64,000 bases of DNA, taken from Cyanosarcina radialis HA8281-LM2 (GTDB lineage Bacteria; Cyanobacteriota; Cyanobacteriia; Cyanobacteriales; CCAP-1448). Position numbers and translations under genes: made by a program. The notes under the pieces were generated by a model. That model searched no databases. It had not been told where the DNA came from and worked only from the letters and a program-made list of their open reading frames with translations. Positions 3,187-35,030 of the stretch are shown piece by piece. How positions within the stretch are numbered: position 1 is the stretch's first letter; each line of letters opens with the position of its first letter. The DNA lies in contig JAHHHA010000006.1 in assembly GCA_019359615.1 (NCBI GenBank), positions 124,001-188,000 on the forward strand. Direction: 5' to 3'.

Positions 3187-3771
3187 ATGAGTAAAGAATA
3201 TAGAAAAGCGATCGCCAGCGAATTAAAAAGCCACGCTGCCATTCTAGGCGGCTGTGTTGCCCTGATGTGGGGACTGGAAATTTTGGATACCATCTTCAAC
3301 AATAGCTTGGATATTTATGGAATCATTCCTCGCAATATCGTGGGCTTGCGGGGGATTCTATTCGCTCCTTGGCTCCATGGCAACTTTCCTCACCTGATTG
3401 CTAATACCATTCCCTTTCTCACTCTCGGCTGGTTCGTGATGTTAAAAGAAACCAGCGATTTTGTGGTAGTGACAGCGGTGACGATGGTAGTCGGGGGATT
3501 GGGCGTATGGTTGTTTGGCGCTGCTAACAGCGTTCACATCGGCGCTAGCATACTAATCTTTGGTTATTTGGGCTTTCTGCTGCTTCGGGGCTACTTTGAA
3601 CGCAGTTTTGGAGCGATCGCTTTATCGGTTATTGTCGGCTTCCTCTACGGTGGCATCATCTGGGGTGTCTTACCGTCTTCCCCGAATGTTTCTTGGGAAG
3701 GCCATTTATTTGGATTTATCGGCGGTGCGATCGCTGCCCGTATGTTATCTCGATCGAAGCTCAGCTTCTAA
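3187..3771 (+). CDS. Rhomboid-family intramembrane serine protease
   Basis: A 194-residue membrane protein with about six hydrophobic segments. It carries rhomboid landmarks: HLIANT in the second segment (the HxxxN motif), a serine in HIGASILIFGYLG at the position of the catalytic GxSG serine, and the catalytic histidine in WEGHLFGFIGG. Rhomboids cut substrates within or next to transmembrane helices. The serine loop reads GAS rather than GASG, a tolerated variant. The ATG at 3187 fits the usual family start; an upstream ATG at 3136 would add 17 residues. It is divergent from the metallophosphoesterase, with which it shares the upstream region. Confidence 0.85.
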   Translation: MSKEYRKAIASELKSHAAILGGCVALMWGLEILDTIFNNSLDIYGIIPRNIVGLRGILFAPWLHGNFPHLIANTIPFLTLGWFVMLKETSDFVVVTAVTMVVGGLGVWLFGAANSVHIGASILIFGYLGFLLLRGYFERSFGAIALSVIVGFLYGGIIWGVLPSSPNVSWEGHLFGFIGGAIAARMLSRSKLSF

Positions 3772-3822
3772 TTGATAAGTAAATCGAGTTACGATCTAAC
3801 ATAGGTAGGGGCGCAAAGCTTT

Positions 3823-4044
3823 CATCGGTGTCAAGTTAACGGTCAAAGCCCTCATCCGTCAGGGGTTGAAAACCCCTGCCTCAAAGCTAAAGTCCTCTAA
3901 AGAGGACTCAGTGACCTGTAGGAAATTTAATTCCTCAGTCCATTTCAATGGACTTGCGCTATTGGCCAGGGGTTTTGAACCCCTGGCGGTTGATGCTGAA
4001 GATCGACACCCAGCAACGGCTCTAGCCTTAACTTGACACCAATG
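3823..4044. mobile_element. MITE-like element, copy 1 (17-bp inverted ends)
   Basis: 222 bp bounded by CATCGGTGTCAAGTTAA and its near-perfect inverse ending in ACTTGACACCAATG. The interior is a chain of hairpins (AGGGGTTGAAAACCCCT, GTCCTCTAAAGAGGAC, AGTCCATTTCAATGGACT, CCAGGGGTTTTGAACCCCTGG) with no coding frame. It sits inside another repeat: the palindrome GTAGGGGCGCAAAG...CTTTGCGCCC is split by it, leaving AAAGCTTT at 3815-3822 and AAACCTTT at 4045-4052, an 8-bp duplication with one mismatch. Other copies are at 29438-29789 and 47439-47650. Confidence 0.8.
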
Positions 4045-4086
4045 AAACCTTTGCGCCCTTACTGTATATGTCGGTTTCAAGAATAA

Positions 4087-4359
4087 ATGGCTAAAAAGCA
4101 GAAATTTCCCCACTTAGTAGGGTCTAAATGGACCGCTAAACAGCAAATGTGGGGATGGCGGCACTTTCAAGTGACGAATCGCAAAAATCAAGGCAAATGG
4201 GTATTTGCCGAAATGGTTGCTGCCTGCGATCCTGAAGTGCGGTTTTGGATAAACGCTCAAGCCCTAAAAGATCGCTTACAATGGCAAGCTGGCTGGCAAT
4301 CTTTGAAAGAGCAGGAAGAATCGAGTTTTGACTTAGAAATTTCGGGAGTTACGCAGTAA
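4087..4359 (+). CDS. Trp-rich conserved protein, TIGR02450 family
   Basis: A 90-residue protein matching the small Trp-rich family known mainly from cyanobacteria: a basic start (MAKKQKFPHLVGSKWTA) and conserved tryptophans in GSKWTAKQQMWGWRHF, GKWVFAEM, RFWINAQALKDRLQWQAGW. Function is unknown. It has no signal peptide or membrane segment, so it is probably cytoplasmic. Full length. It begins 42 bases after the MITE copy and stands alone. Confidence 0.85.
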   Translation: MAKKQKFPHLVGSKWTAKQQMWGWRHFQVTNRKNQGKWVFAEMVAACDPEVRFWINAQALKDRLQWQAGWQSLKEQEESSFDLEISGVTQ

Positions 4360-4419
4360 CAACAATGACCAAAAATAAGTGGATACAAGTCTTCTAGCTT
4401 GAGGAGAAAAGTGTTTGTC

Positions 4420-4522
4420 ATACCATTTTGCTCGCATATCTGCTACACACAATTTACCCGTAGGGGCGCAATGCATTGCGCCCTTACCCAGGATGTATTG
4501 CACCTAAAAAGTAAAATGGTAT
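4420..4522. repeat. Small repeat with ATACCATTTT inverted ends
   Basis: 103 bp framed by ATACCATTTT (4420-4429) and AAAATGGTAT (4513-4522), a perfect 10-bp inverted pair. In the middle is the common palindrome GTAGGGGCGCAATGCATTGCGCCCTTAC (given here only as a type, 4460-4487). Similar ATACCA-ended pairs occur at 35724-35866 and 57736-57829. It may be a TA-targeting non-autonomous element; no coding content. Confidence 0.55.
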
Positions 4523-4546
4523 CAGGAATTCACGCTTCTTTCAAAA

Positions 4547-4582
4547 ACTAATTTTTAACTTTTAACTTTTAACTTTTGACTT
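4547..4582. repeat. Heptad tandem repeat (TTTTAAC type)
   Basis: Successive copies of a TTTTAACT-like unit end five bases before the ABC ATPase start. A complementary run (AGTCAAAAGTTAAAAG type) lies just after the same gene at 5434-5467, so the gene is bracketed by inverted tandem-repeat tracts. Such short tandem repeats are common in filamentous cyanobacteria. Confidence 0.6.
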
Positions 4583-4586
4583 ACTA

Positions 4587-5435
4587 ATGACTGCTGTTTC
4601 ATTACAAAATATATACAAAATCTATAGCAAAGCGTCAGTAGTTAACGATTTGTCTTTTGCCATTAATTCAGGAGAAATATTTGGTCTTTTAGGACCTAAT
4701 GGTGCTGGCAAATCGACTACTATTCGGATGCTAACCACGCTAACCAAACCTACCAATGGCGAAATTCGCGTAGCTGGTTACGATGTAGTGCGACAACCTT
4801 TACAAGTAAAACAGCAGATCGGCGTAGTTTTACAACAAATCAGCGTCGATGGCGATTTATCTGTTTGGGAAAATATGGAGCTTCACGGCAGACTGCATCA
4901 CATTCCCAATCCCCGGCGGCAACAAGAGATCGATCGCTGGCTGGAATATGTAGAACTGACAAACCGACGAAAAGATCTAGTTAAAACCCTTTCTGGTGGA
5001 ATGAAGCGGCGACTGCAAATTGCCAGAGCTTTATTGCATCAGCCTAAAATATTATTCTTAGACGAGCCAACTGTAGGATTAGATCCTCAAACCCGCAGGC
5101 GATTGTGGGAAATCATCCGCGACTTAAACCAGCAAGGTATGACGATTTTACTGACGACTCACTACATGGAAGAAGTAGAGTATCTATGCGATCGCATCGG
5201 CATTATGGATGGTGGCAAGCTAATCGAGTTGGGTACTCTGGCAGAACTCCGCTCTAAGTATGGTGAAGGATTGATGATGAGGCAAGTTGGAGAACGTTGG
5301 GAATACAAATTTTTCCCCAACTTAGAAGAAGCTAATGAATATCTGGACGCATTACCAGATAAAATCGGCACTATGGTGCGTCCTTCAAATTTAGAAGATA
5401 TCTTTGTCCAACTTACAGGACACCAACTTAATTAA
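4587..5435 (+). CDS. ABC transporter ATP-binding protein
   Basis: A 282-residue nucleotide-binding subunit of the CcmA/DrrA-like class that usually drives ABC-2 export permeases. It has Walker A GPNGAGKST, signature LSGGMKRRLQIARALL, Walker B ILFLDEPTVGLD and the switch histidine in LLTTHYMEEVEYLCDR. The C-terminal 60 residues form the short accessory domain common in this class. No permease gene lies next to it; the downstream gene is scpB, so the membrane partner must be encoded elsewhere. The transported substrate cannot be read from the sequence. Intact. Confidence 0.9.
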   Translation: MTAVSLQNIYKIYSKASVVNDLSFAINSGEIFGLLGPNGAGKSTTIRMLTTLTKPTNGEIRVAGYDVVRQPLQVKQQIGVVLQQISVDGDLSVWENMELHGRLHHIPNPRRQQEIDRWLEYVELTNRRKDLVKTLSGGMKRRLQIARALLHQPKILFLDEPTVGLDPQTRRRLWEIIRDLNQQGMTILLTTHYMEEVEYLCDRIGIMDGGKLIELGTLAELRSKYGEGLMMRQVGERWEYKFFPNLEEANEYLDALPDKIGTMVRPSNLEDIFVQLTGHQLN

Positions 5436-23073: not shown

Positions 23074-23373
23074 GGGGAAATCTCCGCTAAAAAGAAAGGT
23101 TATAGGGCATGGGGCATGGGGCATGGGGTAGAGGAATAGCCATATATTCCTTATTCTGCTCGCGTACTTAGAGATTTGGGAGGTAGTAATACGATGTGTC
23201 TATTCCCCGATTTCATAAATTTTTAGTTGGGGGCTGATATCTAAGTAGATGAATTTACCAGGTTAATCCGATTATGCTCGATCGACTCTATGCTAACCAA
23301 TTCTGGCTGAGGGAAAACCCCGATTTTCTTAGTATATTAGTGCCAAACACGGCCAGCTAGGAGAATAACTGCT

Positions 23374-24048
23374 GTGGACGAACGACTTCGAGATTTAATT
23401 TCCCAAGTATGTCAGTATGAAATTGCTAGTCTAGAGCGACAGCAAGCACTAAATCGATTGTTAAGAGCGATCGCGCAATTACCGGGGATTTACAAATCGT
23501 CTCACCAAGACTATCCAGAGGCCTTTAATCGTACCTTGGAATGGGTCTGCAAGAATATCGATCGCTTTGAGGTCAATTCGCCTTCGGTGCAAAAAAGTTT
23601 TGTAGTCTGGATTAACGGCTATCTTAAATGGCGTATCCGCGATTTGTATATTCCAGACGATCGCTATAGTTTTATTACTAGTAATGATGCAGATGGGGCA
23701 ATAGATTTGATAGAAAGTATTCCCGATCCTAAATTTTCGATCGGTTTGCTCGATTTAAAAATTGCTGAGATGCAAGCAACCAAACTAGAACGACAAGGAC
23801 TATTAATTAAGCAATATATCGAACGAGATCCAGAAAATATTCTGTCAACTTGTCATCTCAGAAAAGACTCGCAATGTCATTGTCATTTATTGGCTTCCCG
23901 GTTGCTGATAGCAGAACCACCTCAAAGTATTGCTGATGTGTCTCGCGAATTGAACGTTAACAATCAAACTATCTATTCTCATTGGAAACAAAAATGCCTG
24001 CCTTTACTTCAAGAAATTGCTCGGCGTTTTGGCGATTTACCTCAATAA
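23374..24048 (+). CDS. Sigma-70-like factor, cyanobacterial DUF1822-associated type
   Basis: A 224-residue protein starting at GTG 23374 with AGGAG upstream. The region AFNRTLEWVCKNIDRFEVNS...SFVVWINGYLKWRIRDLYI resembles sigma region 2, and the C-terminus SIADVSRELNVNNQTIYSHW is a region-4-like helix-turn-helix. A cysteine/histidine-rich stretch between them (STCHLRKDSQCHCHLLASRL) could bind metal. Related small sigma-like genes sit upstream of DUF1822 and CHAT genes in cyanobacteria. Here the same order occurs. It would direct RNA polymerase to specific promoters; DNA targets are unknown. Confidence 0.72.
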   Translation: MDERLRDLISQVCQYEIASLERQQALNRLLRAIAQLPGIYKSSHQDYPEAFNRTLEWVCKNIDRFEVNSPSVQKSFVVWINGYLKWRIRDLYIPDDRYSFITSNDADGAIDLIESIPDPKFSIGLLDLKIAEMQATKLERQGLLIKQYIERDPENILSTCHLRKDSQCHCHLLASRLLIAEPPQSIADVSRELNVNNQTIYSHWKQKCLPLLQEIARRFGDLPQ

Positions 24049-24065
24049 GGGCGAAAAATTTGCCT

Positions 24066-24115
24066 GGGCGATTGAAATCGCGGCTATATAATCAAAGTCC
24101 GCCTGCGCGGACTTC
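24066..24115. repeat. Cyanobacterial palindromic repeat (AGTCCGCCTGCGCGGACT type)
   Basis: Two hairpins in series: GCGATTGAAATCGC, then GGCTATATAATCAA, then AGTCCGCCTGCGCGGACT. A second, inverted copy is at 42035-42095. It lies between the sigma-like and DUF1822 genes, where it could affect mRNA processing. Confidence 0.75.
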
Positions 24116-24175
24116 AGCAAATGAACTTACTTATCGGGATTTTTAGCAGTTAAATAGATCGGAAGAAAAAAAACT

Positions 24176-25138
24176 ATGAATCTCACATCATCTCAAGCAA
24201 TAACTGTTTTACTAGATAAACACGCCCATCGTTACGCTCGACAATTTGCTACCGAACAAGCAAGCGTAGAGAAAGGCAAACAAGTTTATTTAAATACTTT
24301 AGCTGTTTGTGCCGTACAGACTTATTTGAAATGGTTATCGATTCCAACTGCTCTCGATCGCAGCGATTGTTGGCATCCTGGGTTAAGAGCAACTTTTAAT
24401 GCGGCCGATCTAGTTTTACCTCAAATTGGTAAGTTAGAATGTCGTCCGATAATAGGTGGCGATCGCGTTTTAATTTTACCACCAGAAGCGATCGACAACC
24501 GAATTGGTTATGTAGCAGTCGAATTTCAGGAAGAATTAGATCGAGTGCAACTTCTAGGCTTTCTCAAACCGAGTACAATTATTAACCCATTAGAACCAAT
24601 ACCTCTCGATCGATTGTCAGATTTAGACGCTCTCATTGAGACGCTCGATCGATGTCGCAATAAGATTAATTTACGTCAATGGTTAAATGGAATTTTTGAA
24701 TCGGAGTGGCAACCATTAGAGGTGCTATTAGCGACACACGGTAAAGCGTTTAGAACTGGTGCTAATCTCTCAGAGGTAAGCCAGCAGCGAGGAAAATTAA
24801 TTCGCTGGAAAATTGCTGGAGAAACTCAAACAACGATATTAGCAATAAAGCTGAAGGATAAATCATCACAGATAGTTGATATTAGCTTGGGGATTTACCC
24901 TTTGCTAGAAACAGAATCGTCGCTCGCTACTAATCTCATCGCAGACGAGCAAATAGACAGCTTAACGCCAAAATTACAGATAACAGTATTAGATGAATTG
25001 GGTAATACTTGTATGTCGGCTCAAACTCAAAACACCAACCAGTGGATAAAACTAGAATTTAGTTGTCAATTTGAAGAAACATTTACCGTTCAAATAAATT
25101 GGGGAGAAACGATTATTACCGAACAGTTCGTTGTTTGA
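24176..25138 (+). CDS. DUF1822 family protein
   Basis: A 320-residue protein of the DUF1822 family, almost confined to cyanobacteria and often found beside sigma-like and CHAT genes. The N-terminal part shows the typical HAHRYARQFATEQASVEKGK and VYLNTLAVCAVQTYLKWLSI, then IGYVAVEFQEELDRVQLLGF. The C-terminal third is predicted to be beta-rich (LKLQITVLDELG and FEETFTVQINWGE-like strands). No catalytic motif or membrane segment is visible. From context it may link the sigma-like factor to the CHAT protease, for example as an inhibitor or cleavage target; this is inference. Confidence 0.82.
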   Translation: MNLTSSQAITVLLDKHAHRYARQFATEQASVEKGKQVYLNTLAVCAVQTYLKWLSIPTALDRSDCWHPGLRATFNAADLVLPQIGKLECRPIIGGDRVLILPPEAIDNRIGYVAVEFQEELDRVQLLGFLKPSTIINPLEPIPLDRLSDLDALIETLDRCRNKINLRQWLNGIFESEWQPLEVLLATHGKAFRTGANLSEVSQQRGKLIRWKIAGETQTTILAIKLKDKSSQIVDISLGIYPLLETESSLATNLIADEQIDSLTPKLQITVLDELGNTCMSAQTQNTNQWIKLEFSCQFEETFTVQINWGETIITEQFVV

Positions 25139-25195
25139 ATAAACTTTCTTCTTACTTGGTGTTCTTTGTGCTTTGGTGGTTCGTTACCTCTGAAA

Positions 25196-27337
25196 ATGTA
25201 TATTGTCAGACTAAAATTCAGACAAACTTCAGAACGAGGATTTCTAGTAACGCTGGCTCATCACCAGCAGCAATTAGAAATAGAAGGCTTTTTGCCAGCT
25301 TTACCAGAAGCACTGCGATCGGCTTTTGAGCAATGGCAATCGGCTTATCGTCAATTAGAAGACGTGCGCTCGTGTATTTCGCCTAAACCGGGATTTCGCT
25401 TAACTCCTAAATCGATGGCCATCGGTTCCAATACTGAATATGCTAATGCCGTCAAAATCCATCTCGATCGATGGCTGAATGAAGCTCATAGCGATTGGCA
25501 ACCGATTAGAGATGGCTTAATTTCGCTGGCTAACCATTTACATCAAACCGAGGTACAACTGATAGTTGATACTCAAGATATCGACTTGCGCCGCTTGCCT
25601 TGGCAAGAATGGGATTTATTAGAAAAATACTATTCTAATAGCGAAGTAGCTTTGTGTACTGCCAAAACTCAATATGGGGCGATCGCTCGAATTCATCCTC
25701 ATCTAAATTATCCCAAACCGAGAATTTTGGTAGTAGTAGGCAGAAGTAATGGAATTAATACCCAGTCAGATTTAGAAGTAATTAAAAACTTAGCAGATCG
25801 CGGTGCAGAAGCTATCTGTTTGCTGCAACCTAATTTAAAAGAGTTATGTGAAGCATTGTGGGATAAGCAAGGATATCACATTTTTGTTTTTACCGGACAT
25901 AGCGGTTCGTTACCAGATGGGAAAATTGGCTGGATTGAGGTCAACGATCGCGAGAGTTTAAGTATTGAAGAATTTAGAGATGCGCTTAAAGAAGCAATTA
26001 ATAAAGGTTTGCAGTTAGCGATTTTTAATTCCTGCGATGGTTTAGGATTAGCCGATCGACTGGCGCAATTGGATTTACCTCAAAGTATTGTCATGCGAGA
26101 GCCAGTTCCTGATGAGGTGGCAGTAGAGTTTTTAAAACATTTCTTTCAGGAATTTGTCAATAACCAATCTTTATTTGCTGCCGTTCAAAAAGCTAAAAAG
26201 CGTCTCGAACCATTTAGATCGAGTTATCCCGGTGCGGTATGGTTGCCAACTATTTGCATTCAACCTGCGGTGCGATCGCTAACTTGGCAAGGAATTTTCG
26301 ATCGAGATTCAAAATCGATAGCTGGTACGGCATCGAAGCTGATAAAAAAGGTTGGAGTTATATTAATAGCCAGTTTGCTGAGTTTTGCGATCGGATTGAC
26401 CACAAATCTTATGGAGCCTCCCGTCTCTTCAGCAACTAATTACCCTGCAAAAATCAAATCTATAGATGCTATTCCTGAAGGAACGTGGCAGTATAGCGGT
26501 AGCACGACTTGGGAACCTATAAGAGAGCAATTAGAGCGAAAAATTAAACGCGATCGCTTAAAATTTCAGCCGATCTATATGCGACATCCTACTTTACCAT
26601 CTGGTTCGAGAACCGGAATTAAAATGCTGTTAGATGGTGAAATTTCTTTTGCCCAGTCTTCTCGGCCGATTAGCGATCGCGAATACGATCTTGCTGCCCA
26701 AAGAGGAGTAAAATTGCAACAAGTTCCCGTTGCTATTGATGGCATTGCTGTTGTCGTTCGCCCTGACTTAAAGCTGGCCGGACTAACGATACAACAACTT
26801 CAAGCTATTTATACAGGTAAGATTAAAAATTGGAGTCAAGTAGGAGGCCCCGATTTAGAAATTATTCCCTACTCTCGCTCTACAGAAAGCGGGACGACAG
26901 AGTTTTTTCAAGAAAATATTTTAGAAGAACGTAATTTTGGCAACAATGTAATTTTTGTAGCCGATCGTAGTGAGGCTTTACTCAAAGTCAGCGATCCTAA
27001 CAAAACAGGAGGAATTTACTTCGCTTCAGTAGCCGAAATAGTCGGACACTGCGAAGTCAAACCTCTGCCGATTAGTCGCCGTCATGGAAGCGTTTTTATT
27101 AATCTAGCTCGAAGGGAAGGGAACTCACCAGAAAAATGCAATCGCCACACAGATCGAATTGACTTTGCAGTTTTGCAAAATGGAGAATACCCCTTAGCTC
27201 GGCGGCTGTTTGTCATCATCGAACATAATAATCCTATGGACGAACAAGCCGGACAGACTTATGCCAAATTATTATTAACAAATGAAGGACAACAGGCGAT
27301 CGAAAAAGCTGGGTTTTTACCACTGCGATCGTTTTGA
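25196..27337 (+). CDS. CHAT protease fused to a PstS-like periplasmic binding domain
   Basis: A 713-residue fusion. Residues 1-105 are a CHAT-associated N-terminal region (MYIVRLKFRQTSERGF). The caspase-like CHAT domain spans about 110-360, with catalytic His235 in FVFTGHSG and Cys280 in IFNSCDGLGLADRL. One membrane helix (VGVILIASLLSFAIGLTTNL) lies at about 384-403. The rest (about 420-713) is PstS-like: YSGSTTWEPI, SRPIS, DGIAVVVRPDL, LQAIYTGKIKNWSQVGG and RSTESGTTEFF. The expected topology is cytoplasmic protease and periplasmic sensor. ATG 25196 is preferred over TTG 25166. A phosphate transporter gene lies downstream. All key residues are present; ligand and substrate are unknown. Confidence 0.88.
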   Translation: MYIVRLKFRQTSERGFLVTLAHHQQQLEIEGFLPALPEALRSAFEQWQSAYRQLEDVRSCISPKPGFRLTPKSMAIGSNTEYANAVKIHLDRWLNEAHSDWQPIRDGLISLANHLHQTEVQLIVDTQDIDLRRLPWQEWDLLEKYYSNSEVALCTAKTQYGAIARIHPHLNYPKPRILVVVGRSNGINTQSDLEVIKNLADRGAEAICLLQPNLKELCEALWDKQGYHIFVFTGHSGSLPDGKIGWIEVNDRESLSIEEFRDALKEAINKGLQLAIFNSCDGLGLADRLAQLDLPQSIVMREPVPDEVAVEFLKHFFQEFVNNQSLFAAVQKAKKRLEPFRSSYPGAVWLPTICIQPAVRSLTWQGIFDRDSKSIAGTASKLIKKVGVILIASLLSFAIGLTTNLMEPPVSSATNYPAKIKSIDAIPEGTWQYSGSTTWEPIREQLERKIKRDRLKFQPIYMRHPTLPSGSRTGIKMLLDGEISFAQSSRPISDREYDLAAQRGVKLQQVPVAIDGIAVVVRPDLKLAGLTIQQLQAIYTGKIKNWSQVGGPDLEIIPYSRSTESGTTEFFQENILEERNFGNNVIFVADRSEALLKVSDPNKTGGIYFASVAEIVGHCEVKPLPISRRHGSVFINLARREGNSPEKCNRHTDRIDFAVLQNGEYPLARRLFVIIEHNNPMDEQAGQTYAKLLLTNEGQQAIEKAGFLPLRSF

Positions 27338-27360
27338 ATTGTCGAGAGGTATTGTGGTGG

Positions 27361-27490
27361 GTGTCGTTGGGTTTCCTATCGTCAACCCAACCTACAGATA
27401 TTGCACTTCACTGGTTTGAAATGAGACATAGCAATTCTCAATTGAGAGAAGCAAATTCTTGTGGGGTAGGCATCCTGCCTGCCCCACTCC
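27361..27490. repeat. Two short repeat units between the CHAT-PstS and the next gene
   Basis: A GTTGGGTTTCCTATCGTCAACCCAACC unit (27368-27394, hairpin-forming) and a CTTGTGGGGTAGGCATCCTGCCTGCCCC unit (27459-27486). Both families occur elsewhere in the window. They separate the CHAT-PstS gene from the small membrane protein gene. Confidence 0.65.
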
Positions 27491-27594
27491 GAACATAATT
27501 TTTCATAAATTGTCAGAAAGTGTCCGATTACTCAGTAGATGGTTAAACATCGAAGCTCTCAAAGCTTATTTTACAGTAATTGGAGCGCTGAGAT

Positions 27595-28077
27595 ATGCAG
27601 ATCCTACAACACACATCTACTAACTTAACGATCTATAGCCGACCGATATTACTCTGGTTGTTTGCTAGCACTTCACTAGTGTTTGCTGCTTTCCCCATTA
27701 AAGAAATAATTCAGCAATATCGCTTTAGAACTGTTCGTTTTGGTTCGATTTTATTCTTAACGATCGTCATTGTCTCTGTCCTCAGTAATTTTTTTGACTC
27801 CACCGAAATTATGACTTCTACATTTGACAAAAATCGAGGGGTTGTAACTATTAGAGAACAGGGGTTACTGGGTACTAAAGTATCCAAATATTTACTGACC
27901 GATATTAGAGATGCGATCGCCCTCACTGACAACAGCGACGATATGGCAACAAAACCAGTCAGGCTATTGTTAGCATCGGGTAAAGAACTGCCAGTTTTTA
28001 GAGAAATTGGCTTATTTAATTCTCAGCAAAAAGCCGAAGCTACTGCCAACTTAATTCGCGATTTTCTCAATTCATGA
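27595..28077 (+). CDS. Two-span membrane protein with a PH-like C-terminal domain
   Basis: A 160-residue protein with two N-terminal hydrophobic helices (ILLWLFASTSLVFAAFPIKE and SILFLTIVIVSVLSNFF) and a C-terminal strand-rich domain (TSTFDKNRGVVTIREQGLLG...YLLTDIRDAIAL...RLLLASGKELPV). This looks like the small membrane-plus-PH-like proteins common in bacteria, but I cannot name the family. Its stop overlaps the PiT transporter start by ATGA, so the two are translationally coupled and probably act together. Confidence 0.65.
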   Translation: MQILQHTSTNLTIYSRPILLWLFASTSLVFAAFPIKEIIQQYRFRTVRFGSILFLTIVIVSVLSNFFDSTEIMTSTFDKNRGVVTIREQGLLGTKVSKYLLTDIRDAIALTDNSDDMATKPVRLLLASGKELPVFREIGLFNSQQKAEATANLIRDFLNS

Positions 28078-29333
28078 TTTTTTTCGTCGTCTTTCTCGCC
28101 TTCTACCTAGCTTGTAATCTAGGGGCAAATGATGTCGCCAACTCCATGGGTACGTCTGTTGGCTCGAAGGCCCTCACTCTCAAACAAGCCATCATTGTTG
28201 CTGGAATTTTGGAATTTACGGGCGCGGTTCTCTTTGGTGGTGGCGTTTCAGAAACCATAGCTACAGACATAGCCAATCCCCCTTTATTTGCCGCTGCTCC
28301 CCAGTTATTGCTATCTGGTATGGTAGCAGCTTTGATTAGCGTCGGTTTGTGGATGCAAATTGCTACCAGTCGGGGGTGGCCGGTTTCTTCCTCTCATGGT
28401 ATTGTCGGTGCGATCGCGGGATTTAGTTGGGTAGCTGCTGGTGTTGGCGCGGTAGATTGGTCTACGATCGGGGCAATTTCGATCGCCTGGGTACTGACAC
28501 CATTGGCCAGCGGGATAATTGCCGCCGCGTTTTATAGCCTCATTAAACGCGCTATTCTCGATCGCCCAGATCCCCTAGCTAGCTTGCAGCAGTGGATTCC
28601 TTGGTTGAGCGTTGCCCTGTTGAGTATATTCGGCGCGATCGTTCTGCCTGCCCTCAGTGCGCCCGTTAATACATGGCTGGCGGCTAATTGGGGTCTGAAC
28701 TTGCCCGGTCAAGATTTGCCTATTGTTGTAGTAGCGATCGGTTCTGTGGTCTTGACGCGGTTTAGCTGGCAGCAATTAGAGTCTGGTACGGAGACAAATG
28801 CAGCCAAATATCCTACCTGCGATCGGGGAGAACGGGTATGGGGCAAATTTCAGGTTTTGAGTGCCTGTTTCGTCGCCTTCGCCCACGGTTCCAACGATGT
28901 CGGCAATGCGATCGCTCCCTTAGCTGCGATCGTCTACATTCAAAGTACGGGATCGGTTCCCCTAGCTGACTTTCACGTCCCTTTGTGGATTCTCGTCGTC
29001 GGTGGTGCGGGGATTGTGGCTGGTCTGGCCGTTTGGGGCAAGAAGGTAATTGCCACCATTGGGGAAAACATTATTGCTCTCGAACCCAGTAGCGGCTTCA
29101 GTGCCGAACTCGCCACCGCTACCACCATTCTCTTAGCTTCCCGCTTGGGACTTCCGGTTTCTACTTCTCACGCCCTAGTTGGTGCTGTGGTCGGCATTGG
29201 ATTAGTTAAAGATTGGCGTTCTGTGCGGTTTCAAACTCTAAAATCTATCGGTTTGGCTTGGTTGATTACTATTCCCGTCACTACCATTTTGGGAGCCACC
29301 ATCTTTTGGTTAATTAGAGCTATCTGGCTTTGA
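28074..29333 (+). CDS. PiT-family inorganic phosphate transporter
   Basis: A 419-residue transporter of the PiT (PHO4) family, which imports metal-phosphate complexes with protons or sodium. Both internal repeats carry the signature: CNLGANDVANSMGTSVGSKA near the N-terminus and AFAHGSNDVGNAIAPLAAIV in the second half, with the associated WPVSSSHGIVGAIAGF and LPVSTSHALVGAVVGIG. About 10-11 membrane helices. It overlaps the preceding small membrane gene by 4 nt. It lies 0.74 kb after the CHAT-PstS gene on the same strand, tying the locus to phosphate by context. Confidence 0.92.
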   Translation: MIFFVVFLAFYLACNLGANDVANSMGTSVGSKALTLKQAIIVAGILEFTGAVLFGGGVSETIATDIANPPLFAAAPQLLLSGMVAALISVGLWMQIATSRGWPVSSSHGIVGAIAGFSWVAAGVGAVDWSTIGAISIAWVLTPLASGIIAAAFYSLIKRAILDRPDPLASLQQWIPWLSVALLSIFGAIVLPALSAPVNTWLAANWGLNLPGQDLPIVVVAIGSVVLTRFSWQQLESGTETNAAKYPTCDRGERVWGKFQVLSACFVAFAHGSNDVGNAIAPLAAIVYIQSTGSVPLADFHVPLWILVVGGAGIVAGLAVWGKKVIATIGENIIALEPSSGFSAELATATTILLASRLGLPVSTSHALVGAVVGIGLVKDWRSVRFQTLKSIGLAWLITIPVTTILGATIFWLIRAIWL

Positions 29334-33738: not shown

Positions 33739-34992
33739 TTAGCTTTTCCCAGCTTTTACCTCCCTCTGATTAGTAAACTGGGAATATAAATTACTAGCAG
33801 CAACTTGTAACCTACCGGGATGACCTTGAGTTCGATCGAATAACTCTTGAATTTCATCTTCGCTGAAAGTTACGCCCGTACCTTGCAATCTTTGCAGAAT
33901 GAAAGCGCGAGTTACCTGTTCGGAAAACGGTTTGACATCTAATTGACGACAGATTCCTGCTAGCGGCGACTCCAATTCGGGTGAGTCGGGAAAAAGATTA
34001 GCTAAGGGAGTTCTACTGGCAATTACTAACTTTAAAGGAGCATTACCGCCATCAGCTAACCCTCGCAACTGACTTCGCACGCGCTTAGTAAAGCCATCCC
34101 AGGTCATTTTTTCAATCTCATCTAAACACAAAATGTAACGCTTCCCGTTTAGCGATCGCGTTAACTGAAAACCGCGACATACAGGAATTTTCAAAGCTTC
34201 TTCGCATAATGCTTCATAAAACTCATCTTCATTGTCTACCCACTGTAAATTCAGGTAAGCATATTTAATGCTATTTAAATTGCTGTTATTCCCCAGCCAT
34301 TCGATACCTTGAGTGTAAATCCGATACAAAATCGATGATTTCCCAATTTGAAATTCACCGACTAAGGATATATTTACTCCTTTGTTCAGTTCTTCAAAAA
34401 TCTGCCGCAATAGCTCTTCGCGATCGAAAAAACGACTGGAATCAGTGATGCAGCCCATATCGCCGAAGGGATTTGGATTGAGGCGATCGCTAGTCAATAA
34501 TTTTGTTACCTGTTGTGGGCGATCGTTGCTAGCACAAATGCTTTCGGAGTTTACCCATCCATTATTAGCCGCCGGAACTATTTGTTGTTTGGATTTTTCC
34601 GGTTGACGGTTTTCCCATTCTTCAGCAAACTTTTCTAGATTTTTAGCTAGTTTTTTCGACCATAAGGTTAAGGTAAAACGCCAATCTTCAGAACCTCGAT
34701 CTTTTAAACGGTTATCTGTCAAAATTCCCAGATAGTCTTCCATCCGTTTCAAAGATTCCTTGATTTGCTCTTTACTGAGTTTTCCTTCATATCGATCGCG
34801 TTCTGTAAGTTGCTCTAAAAATCTCAACTTGGTTTCAATCAATAGTTGGGGATGGGGAGAATCTTCTTCCAGCCACTTGAATTGAACGTAGCGATCGTTC
34901 TCATACAAATTGTCTGAAGCAAAGGCGAGCAATGCTTCTAACAGGCGTAAAGCCCTGGTTTTGACTTGTAACCCAAAGGTGGCTCTAGGCAT
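33739..34992 (-). CDS. AAA-like signalling ATPase with an effector-associated N-terminal domain
   Basis: A 417-residue protein. The N-terminal 130 residues (ALRLLEALLAFASDNLYEND...LLIETKLRFLEQLTERDRYE...EALKRMEDYLGILTDNRL-like) match a helical domain found at the front of many cyanobacterial NB-ARC, AAA and CHAT proteins. A P-loop ATPase follows: SLVGEFQIGKSSILYRIY (Walker A), RYILCLDEIEKM (Walker B) and a sensor region VIASRTPLANLF. The C-terminal winged-helix-like part reads IQELFDRTQGHPGRLQVAAS. Such ATPases act as signalling switches or immune-type sensors. ATG 34992 is preferred over TTG 35019. No partner effector is adjacent. Confidence 0.75.
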   Translation of the reverse strand: MPRATFGLQVKTRALRLLEALLAFASDNLYENDRYVQFKWLEEDSPHPQLLIETKLRFLEQLTERDRYEGKLSKEQIKESLKRMEDYLGILTDNRLKDRGSEDWRFTLTLWSKKLAKNLEKFAEEWENRQPEKSKQQIVPAANNGWVNSESICASNDRPQQVTKLLTSDRLNPNPFGDMGCITDSSRFFDREELLRQIFEELNKGVNISLVGEFQIGKSSILYRIYTQGIEWLGNNSNLNSIKYAYLNLQWVDNEDEFYEALCEEALKIPVCRGFQLTRSLNGKRYILCLDEIEKMTWDGFTKRVRSQLRGLADGGNAPLKLVIASRTPLANLFPDSPELESPLAGICRQLDVKPFSEQVTRAFILQRLQGTGVTFSEDEIQELFDRTQGHPGRLQVAASNLYSQFTNQREVKAGKS

Positions 34993-35030
34993 TTTTTTAT
35001 CGCATAGTCCGCTTAGCAAAAGTTAGTTTG

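Follow-up and report, generated by a model that had tools for sequence, protein, structure and literature searches.

The locus examined here lies in a 64,000-nucleotide (nt) stretch of the cyanobacterium Cyanosarcina radialis HA8281-LM2 (contig JAHHHA010000006.1, positions 124,001 to 188,000 of the forward strand), which we call the window. Family matches and aligned residues place in it, just downstream of the genes for a sigma-like factor and a DUF1822 protein, a putative receptor-protease in which a PstS-like domain is fused to a caspase-like CHAT domain with an intact His/Cys pair. We read the locus as an EACC2/sigma/DUF1822 module whose putative receptor-protease is of phosphate type, and for which a promoter, a target and a cleavage site can be named as candidates. 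Its five genes, all on the plus strand, were found among the open reading frames (ORFs) of the window where a preliminary description of this DNA had placed them; ORFs and Pfam matches agree with the order and coordinates given there and with the 4-nt overlap between the small-membrane-protein and PiT genes. The features, in window positions, are as follows.

23212..23251, plus strand: promoter-like motif, copy 1, TTCATAAATT-N14-GAT-N5-AGTA, upstream of the sigma-like gene; proposed promoter of the sigma gene itself
23374..24048, plus strand: sigma-like factor, 224 amino acids (aa), GTG start; sigma2-linker-sigma4 in the predicted model
24176..25138, plus strand: DUF1822 protein, 320 aa; PF08852, 193.5 bits (cut-off 25)
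24752..24754, plus strand: codon of Arg193 in the low-confidence DUF1822 linker; candidate site of a putative cleavage
25196..27337, plus strand: CHAT protease, membrane helix and PstS-like receptor in one protein, 713 aa; from Pfam/TIGRFAM matches and the choice of ORF start
25760..26206, plus strand: CHAT (caspase-like) domain, residues ~189-337; PF12770, 45.9 bits (cut-off 24)
26357..26413, plus strand: membrane helix of the fusion, residues ~388-406; one hydrophobic segment
26489..27283, plus strand: PstS-like domain; PBP_like_2, PF12849, 114.1 bits (cut-off 27); GST, SSR and RxxxSGT intact
27502..27541, plus strand: promoter-like motif, copy 2; precedes the small membrane protein/PiT pair
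27595..28077, plus strand: small membrane protein, 160 aa; two hydrophobic segments, no family over cut-off
28074..29333, plus strand: PiT-type phosphate transporter, 419 aa; PF01384, 366 bits (cut-off 33.7)

Predicted folds and conserved residues of the three core proteins

The product of the first gene matches no Pfam family over cut-off, sigma regions 2 and 4 included, and is for that reason called sigma-like. Its AlphaFold2 model has a mean predicted local distance difference test score (pLDDT) of 82, a predicted template modeling score (pTM) of 0.44 and two helical domains separated by a low-confidence linker (residues 94-123). Foldseek returned nothing for this model at E <= 0.001 (best E 0.011). 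When Foldseek's own candidates were aligned with VIA-align, all 50 rows listed were titled sigma factors or sigma chains of RNA polymerase complexes, the best being sigmaE (1or7_B, Z 9.2); single-domain rows include one of Z 8.8 with a root-mean-square deviation of 3.4 over 86 residues. The protein is predicted to fold as a sigma factor, with sigma2 and sigma4 joined by the linker, and the sigma-70-like identity proposed in the preliminary description is upheld by this predicted fold, although the sequence families are silent. A paralogue at another locus of the same genome (L016; L and G numbers label the compared loci and genomes, and WIN is the locus in the window) exceeds the cut-off of Sigma70_r2, scoring 37.7 bits.

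The DUF1822 model (mean pLDDT 88) comprises an N-terminal alpha/beta domain followed by a C-terminal immunoglobulin (Ig)-like beta-sandwich at residues ~199-320. A sequence comparison with solved chains gave no match, nor did Foldseek on the model at E <= 0.001; the VIA rows span residues 199-320 (best Z 7.4), where the Ig-like arrangement is a common one, and barely probe the N-terminal domain. The protein has no predicted membrane helix. The linker between its two domains varies in length and letters. Within it, 44 of 46 rows share Arg193 although its neighbors vary, and this residue sits in a ten-residue block with a mean pLDDT of 56. A hydrophobic-Arg-small motif occurs somewhere in the linker of 36 of 42 non-redundant DUF1822 sequences, compared with a mean of 12.6 and a maximum of 24 in 2000 shuffles, a control that ignores relatedness among the sequences. 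This set derives from 93 DUF1822 sequences, 6 of which lack a linker by pattern and 45 of which were dropped as near-copies. A looser motif, R[SNGT], was not used, being uninformative because the excised linker itself ends in such a pair. Arg193 is thus a candidate cleavage site, with the cut presumably falling after it.

For the fusion protein, the most likely start is the ATG at 25196, which yields 713 aa and preserves the His235/Cys280 numbering used before. These two residues are retained in 98 of 99 homologous rows, Glu302 in 100 of 100 aligned rows and Asp306 in 97 of 100. By eye, Asp306 seems to align with the Asp of an LWxVxD-like motif in canonical CHAT proteins of the same genome; in separases, this Asp belongs to the lining of a pocket that accepts Arg. 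In 100 aligned rows with differing sensors, CHAT follows a conserved N-terminal region. One hydrophobic segment is present in 26 of 29 CHAT-PstS rows, that of the window included, and would place the PstS-like domain outside the cell by way of a single membrane helix. Together with the Pfam matches, these observations sustain the earlier picture of a CHAT protease with a His235/Cys280 pair joined by one helix to a PstS-like domain.

The sensor is labeled PstS-like because its TIGR02136 score, 145.7 bits, is under the curated cut-off of 206.6. Its best alignment is to Sll0540, which we take to be SphX of Synechocystis; most of the other solved structures closest to it bear the name of a phosphate-binding protein. 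In alignments with such structures, the window copy has complete GST, SSR and RxxxSGT motifs, whose residues serve the phosphate site. Among the matches listed for 60 relatives and 388 genomes of the class, CHAT-PstS fusions occur in the own genome, G238, G215, G027, G042 and G024; those of G115 and G046 are partial or split. An Oscillatoriaceae genome has the CHAT and PstS parts in the same frame, split by a single in-frame stop (L128:10994-13195, identical to L049), and a Hydrococcus locus has an additional 300-aa ORF between DUF1822 and CHAT-PstS (L058:9645-10547). Elsewhere, a Ser/Thr protein kinase is fused to the same PstS-like domain (L171:8070-10355), which means that the domain is joined to at least two kinds of signaling output in cyanobacteria.

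Recurrence of the module and its relation to known systems

The arrangement of a sigma factor, DUF1822 and a caspase with a variable sensor has already been published. Kaur et al. (2021, eLife, PMC8195603) report an alpha+beta EACC2 domain with a caspase and variable C-terminal domains, beside an extracytoplasmic function (ECF) sigma factor and DUF1822; they propose stimulus-driven autopeptidase activation of the caspase, with the sigma factor as output. The C-terminal parts that they name are CHASE2, PDZ, kinase, STAND and "several small-molecule-binding domains". Our locus resembles that module in its conserved N-terminal region, caspase-superfamily domain, variable C-terminal sensor and neighboring ECF-like sigma and DUF1822 genes. 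It differs in that the main text of PMC8195603 has neither the term periplasmic nor the term PBP, and its passages on the arrangement mention no PstS/LivK sensors, promoter motif or transporter target. That paper also calls DUF1822 a tetratricopeptide repeat (TPR) protein; for the window protein, predicted as alpha/beta plus Ig-like, we rejected this label, as there is neither a Pfam TPR match nor a TPR in the model. New here are the recurrence of sigma-DUF1822-CHAT-PstS with a sensor-linked DUF1822 clade, the DUF1822 fold with its linker Arg, and the promoter-like motif. Among the open-access PMC papers listed in our searches, none was recognized as an experiment on a CHAT/sigma/DUF1822 module.

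The own genome has 10 CHAT and 5 DUF1822 matches. Sigma-like, DUF1822 and CHAT genes stand together at three further places, with a LivK-type receptor (L014), nSTAND1-WD40 (L015) or pentapeptide repeats before CHAT (L016) as added parts, and a sigma-like gene and DUF1822 without CHAT lie together at a fourth (L017). Genomes of the Genome Taxonomy Database (GTDB) were scanned with an alignment of five DUF1822 proteins, and the best 80 of 224 loci, holding 86 DUF1822 genes, were kept. CHAT accompanied by sigma is of PstS type for 13 of these genes, of LivK type for 6, of both for 4, of CHASE2 type for 16 and of nSTAND type for 2; three more have other or unlabeled CHAT parts, all with sigma, and for nine no CHAT was found (three of them without sigma). 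The variable C-terminal ends include PstS, LivK-type, CHASE2 and nSTAND1, and also TPR; the labels come from clusters of these ends, with Pfam run on cluster representatives only. The co-occurrence of sigma, DUF1822 and CHAT is beyond chance. The gene order claimed in the preliminary description thus recurs as sigma-DUF1822-CHAT-PstS in other cyanobacteria, without the small membrane protein and PiT.

Sensor type goes with the DUF1822 clade. A tree of 93 DUF1822 rows, from the own and other loci, contains a 32-row clade (Shimodaira-Hasegawa-like approximate likelihood ratio test, 92) in which 25 of 25 labeled rows have solute-binding sensors (PstS 15, LivK 6, both 4); the rest of the tree has PstS in two rows and LivK in L014 alone. 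On the sigma tree, PstS and CHASE2 labels are clustered (4 changes versus 14.4 when shuffled, and 4 versus 13.8, respectively), and LivK labels are not (6 versus 6.7). Sigma and DUF1822 distances are correlated (Mantel r 0.89; maximum of 1000 permutations 0.49), with relatedness and long branches contributing to this value. The nearest relative of the window DUF1822 is from Hydrococcus (57% identity in DUF1822, 67% in sigma).

Six loci (L060, L061, L064, L073, L074 and L087) have one sigma/DUF1822 pair followed by two to three CHAT genes on the same strand within 9 kb, the second CHAT gene of L060 being broken; such an arrangement would follow from several sensors acting on one pair. Seven sigma-less DUF1822-CHAT(CHASE2) units (L116, L118, L119, L122, L129, L131 and L136) are divergent from a sigma gene 0.2-1.5 kb away. 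For six of the seven, that sigma gene belongs to a second DUF1822-CHAT unit, so two units may share one sigma. Upstream of the module, eight Nostoc-type loci (L168, at 3229-4830, L067, L072, L073, L074, L077, L081 and L082) carry a PstS-like ORF that runs on the opposite strand; it adjoins a PspA/IM30-like gene (by Pfam) in L168, and the two seem fused in L072.

Among known systems, the type III-E CRISPR Craspase offers the closest experimentally tested parallel in logic: its CHAT protease Csx29 (TPR-CHAT) cuts Csx30, the inhibitor of a sigma factor (PMC10028731). Our locus shares with that system (Cas7-11, Csx29, Csx30 and CASP-sigma) a CHAT protease, an ECF-like sigma neighbor and a third protein that may be a cleaved inhibitor. 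The Craspase signal is target RNA through Cas7-11 (PMC10028731), whereas an outside ligand is proposed here, and Csx29 has TPR, whereas the window CHAT protein has no Pfam TPR match. The sequence and structure rows listed for DUF1822 include no Csx30, an absence that is uninformative. The preliminary description had limited its CRISPR comparison to logic, and the comparison does hold at that level alone. As presented in the same source, DegS-RseA-sigmaE and RsiW-sigmaW likewise couple an outside signal to proteolysis of a sigma partner and sigma release; here, by contrast, sensor and protease form one caspase-like protein, and the proposed substrate, DUF1822, lacks a predicted membrane helix.

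A third comparison is with the SphS-SphR/Pho regulon and the PstS/SphX proteins of cyanobacteria, which, like the relay proposed below, combine a PstS-family phosphate-binding domain with a phosphate transport output. Unlike SphS-SphR, the five genes include no match to a histidine kinase or response regulator.

A promoter-like motif and the phosphate transporter pair

The DNA preceding 19 non-redundant sigma genes was searched for dyads; the top pairs, which occur in 8 of 19 sequences compared with 3-6 in shuffles, led to the motif TTCATAAA-spacer-GATA. The window form, TTCATAAATT-N14-GAT-N5-AGTA, has without mismatch exactly two matches in the 6.5-Mb genome, at 23212 and 27502, both in the locus. 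The two copies are equal at 29 of 40 positions with no gap, compared with 20-24 in 40 randomized pairs. The simplest reading is that the motif would be a promoter used by this sigma-like factor, which would then regulate its own gene and one more operon.

When up to 3 mismatches are allowed, the other 26 matches in the own genome are at the backward-control level (28 in all versus 38), and the genes after seven of them suggest no phosphate link. Most motif matches in other module-bearing genomes are likewise at control level, matches in L289 and L290 precede genes without evident link, and a search for TTCATAA near the PiT genes of module-bearing genomes gave no match of the motif. A second copy in a Lyngbya genome (L290:1501-1536), before a 171-aa ORF of unknown family with a lipoprotein- or pilin-like start, could be chance. 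We also looked for a Pho box, using a consensus that we take to be the accepted one; the two-repeat scan gave 87 matches versus 75.8 expected, and we claim no link.

Homologues of the small membrane protein occur in 11 of 60 genomes, the own counted; they are weak outside the own genome and lie within 1.5 kb of PiT only in the window. A long conserved ORF (L242:6907-9249 and others) is common to 31 of 41 PiT neighborhoods and has no homologue in window positions 18000-40000. At L214:5847-9021, in G004, a sigma-like gene and DUF1822 are followed directly by PiT, with no CHAT between, an arrangement that could be chance.

A proposed phosphate-responsive relay and its alternatives

We propose that extracellular phosphate controls a cytoplasmic protease that frees the sigma-like factor from DUF1822, and that the freed factor drives its own operon and PiT. 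We infer the proteolysis, the ligand and the direction, and hold the whole to be possible, if a little short of an even chance. DUF1822 would hold the sigma-like factor inactive until phosphate binding, or its loss, by the outer PstS-like domain switches the CHAT protease. The protease would then cut DUF1822 in its flexible linker, probably after Arg193, parting the N-terminal domain from the Ig-like domain and releasing the sigma-like factor. This factor may transcribe from TTCATAAA-N15/16-GAT promoters, which in this genome would serve its own operon, as positive feedback, and the small-membrane-protein/PiT operon. Activation by phosphate sufficiency is tentatively favored because PiT transporters are usually low-affinity importers. 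A fuller version, which we regard as somewhat doubtful, has the ligand-bound receptor-protease cutting an Arg site in a dedicated inhibitor, DUF1822, and so opening a private regulon in which the sigma-like factor serves its own operon and a phosphate importer, which would be a new mode of nutrient signaling in bacteria; the PstS/LivK clade would act alike, in some cases with two to three receptor-proteases converging on one sigma/DUF1822 pair.

A range of observations weighs against the proposed relay. PiT and the small membrane protein, counted as module parts in the preliminary description, were rejected as core members, being absent from the 93 other DUF1822/CHAT loci compared (two of which occur twice). 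Of 11 module-bearing genomes searched, 6 have no PiT at E 1e-30, including those of L058, L085 and L087, where the motif precedes sigma. Sigma/DUF1822 adjoin PiT at one of 29 PiT loci from other relatives (G004, without CHAT; 1.5-kb flanks) and at none of 40 more, drawn from the 94 other genomes of the class in which PiT was matched; seven genomes are common to the two sets. Because the pair is not conserved beside the module and PiT is often absent from the genomes, the two would at best be local targets. A sigma-PiT link draws support from the shared promoter-like motif and not from conserved adjacency. A three-repeat Pho box, allowing 3 mismatches, has no match in the window.

The motif may instead be another regulator's site or a rare repeat, unused by the sigma-like factor and near PiT by chance, an explanation that we consider quite unlikely. 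The rarity of PiT adjacency fits it, as does the absence of the broader motif form, defined below, before most related sigma genes. The stringent form, TTCATAAA-N15/16-GAT-N5-AGTA, matches in 14 of 388 class genomes, of which the own genome alone has two matches; the 13 found elsewhere equal the backward-control level (13), and the form was not found in G238, G215 and G004 despite their related modules. The broader form, TTCATAAA-N14-17-GATA, picked after the hits were seen, stands before the sigma gene at 6 of the 18 non-redundant loci of the related type (WIN, L058, L070, L080, L085 and L087) and is missing before the other 12. Two of the six positive loci, L070 and L080, are typed by DUF1822 clade alone, with no sensor seen on their contigs, and the copy before the PiT pair, with GATT, falls outside this form. 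Against a chance repeat, the broader form precedes none of 16 other sigma genes and none of 915 other mechanical ORFs. It matches seven times in 3.07 million bases on both strands, and six of the seven occurrences precede sigma genes of this clade with a near-fixed spacing like that of -35/-10 elements (the seventh is elsewhere in L129). The likeness of the two window copies, moreover, stops at the motif edges.

The other alternatives concern the parts of the relay itself. Its ligand might not be phosphate but another anion or a small molecule bound by a diverged PstS fold, which we judge rather unlikely. Many other CHAT-PstS proteins have a changed third phosphate-site motif, RxxxSGT, LivK-type receptors occur in sister operons, and the TIGR02136 score is below the curated cut-off; the window copy, however, retains all three motifs, its nearest solved structures, Sll0540 first, are mostly phosphate-binding proteins, and the gene pair that shares the promoter-like motif includes a phosphate transporter. 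It is about equally improbable that DUF1822 is an adaptor or cofactor rather than substrate or inhibitor, with CHAT cutting itself or the sigma-like factor. Self-cleavage is what PMC8195603 proposes, and 33 of the 86 DUF1822 genes have a CHASE2-type CHAT without a recognized sigma within 1.5 kb upstream on the same strand. Four of these 33 have less than 900 bases of upstream DNA and seven have a divergent sigma gene within 1.6 kb; the 22 left imply that DUF1822 need not be a local anti-sigma factor. The near-invariant Arg in an otherwise variable linker between the two DUF1822 domains speaks for a substrate.

Lastly, the locus may be a conflict or programmed-death system in the sense of Kaur et al., in which a danger signal would trigger self-cleavage, the sigma factor would start a defense or suicide programme, the PstS-like domain would sense envelope or nutrient state and PiT would be incidental. 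Autopeptidase activation with a sigma output is the published proposal for this architecture (PMC8195603), paralogous loci of the own genome carry nSTAND/WD40, pentapeptide and LivK-type parts, and an EAD4-nSTAND1 gene, part of a predicted conflict system, lies 4.4 kb downstream on the minus strand (window 33739-35019). Pfam/TIGRFAM scans, however, matched no toxic or nuclease effector domain among the five genes, and the sole two exact motif sites precede the sigma-like gene and a transporter pair; we find this explanation fairly improbable. The earlier interpretation was right in outline, being backed by the recurring gene order, the predicted sigma fold, the catalytic pair and the phosphate-site motifs, and lacked the prior published description of the arrangement.

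If the proposed phosphate relay is true, bacterial caspase-like proteases would serve nutrient sensing besides defense or cell death. The locus supplies a likely ligand, cleavage site, promoter and target operon, so each step can be tested.

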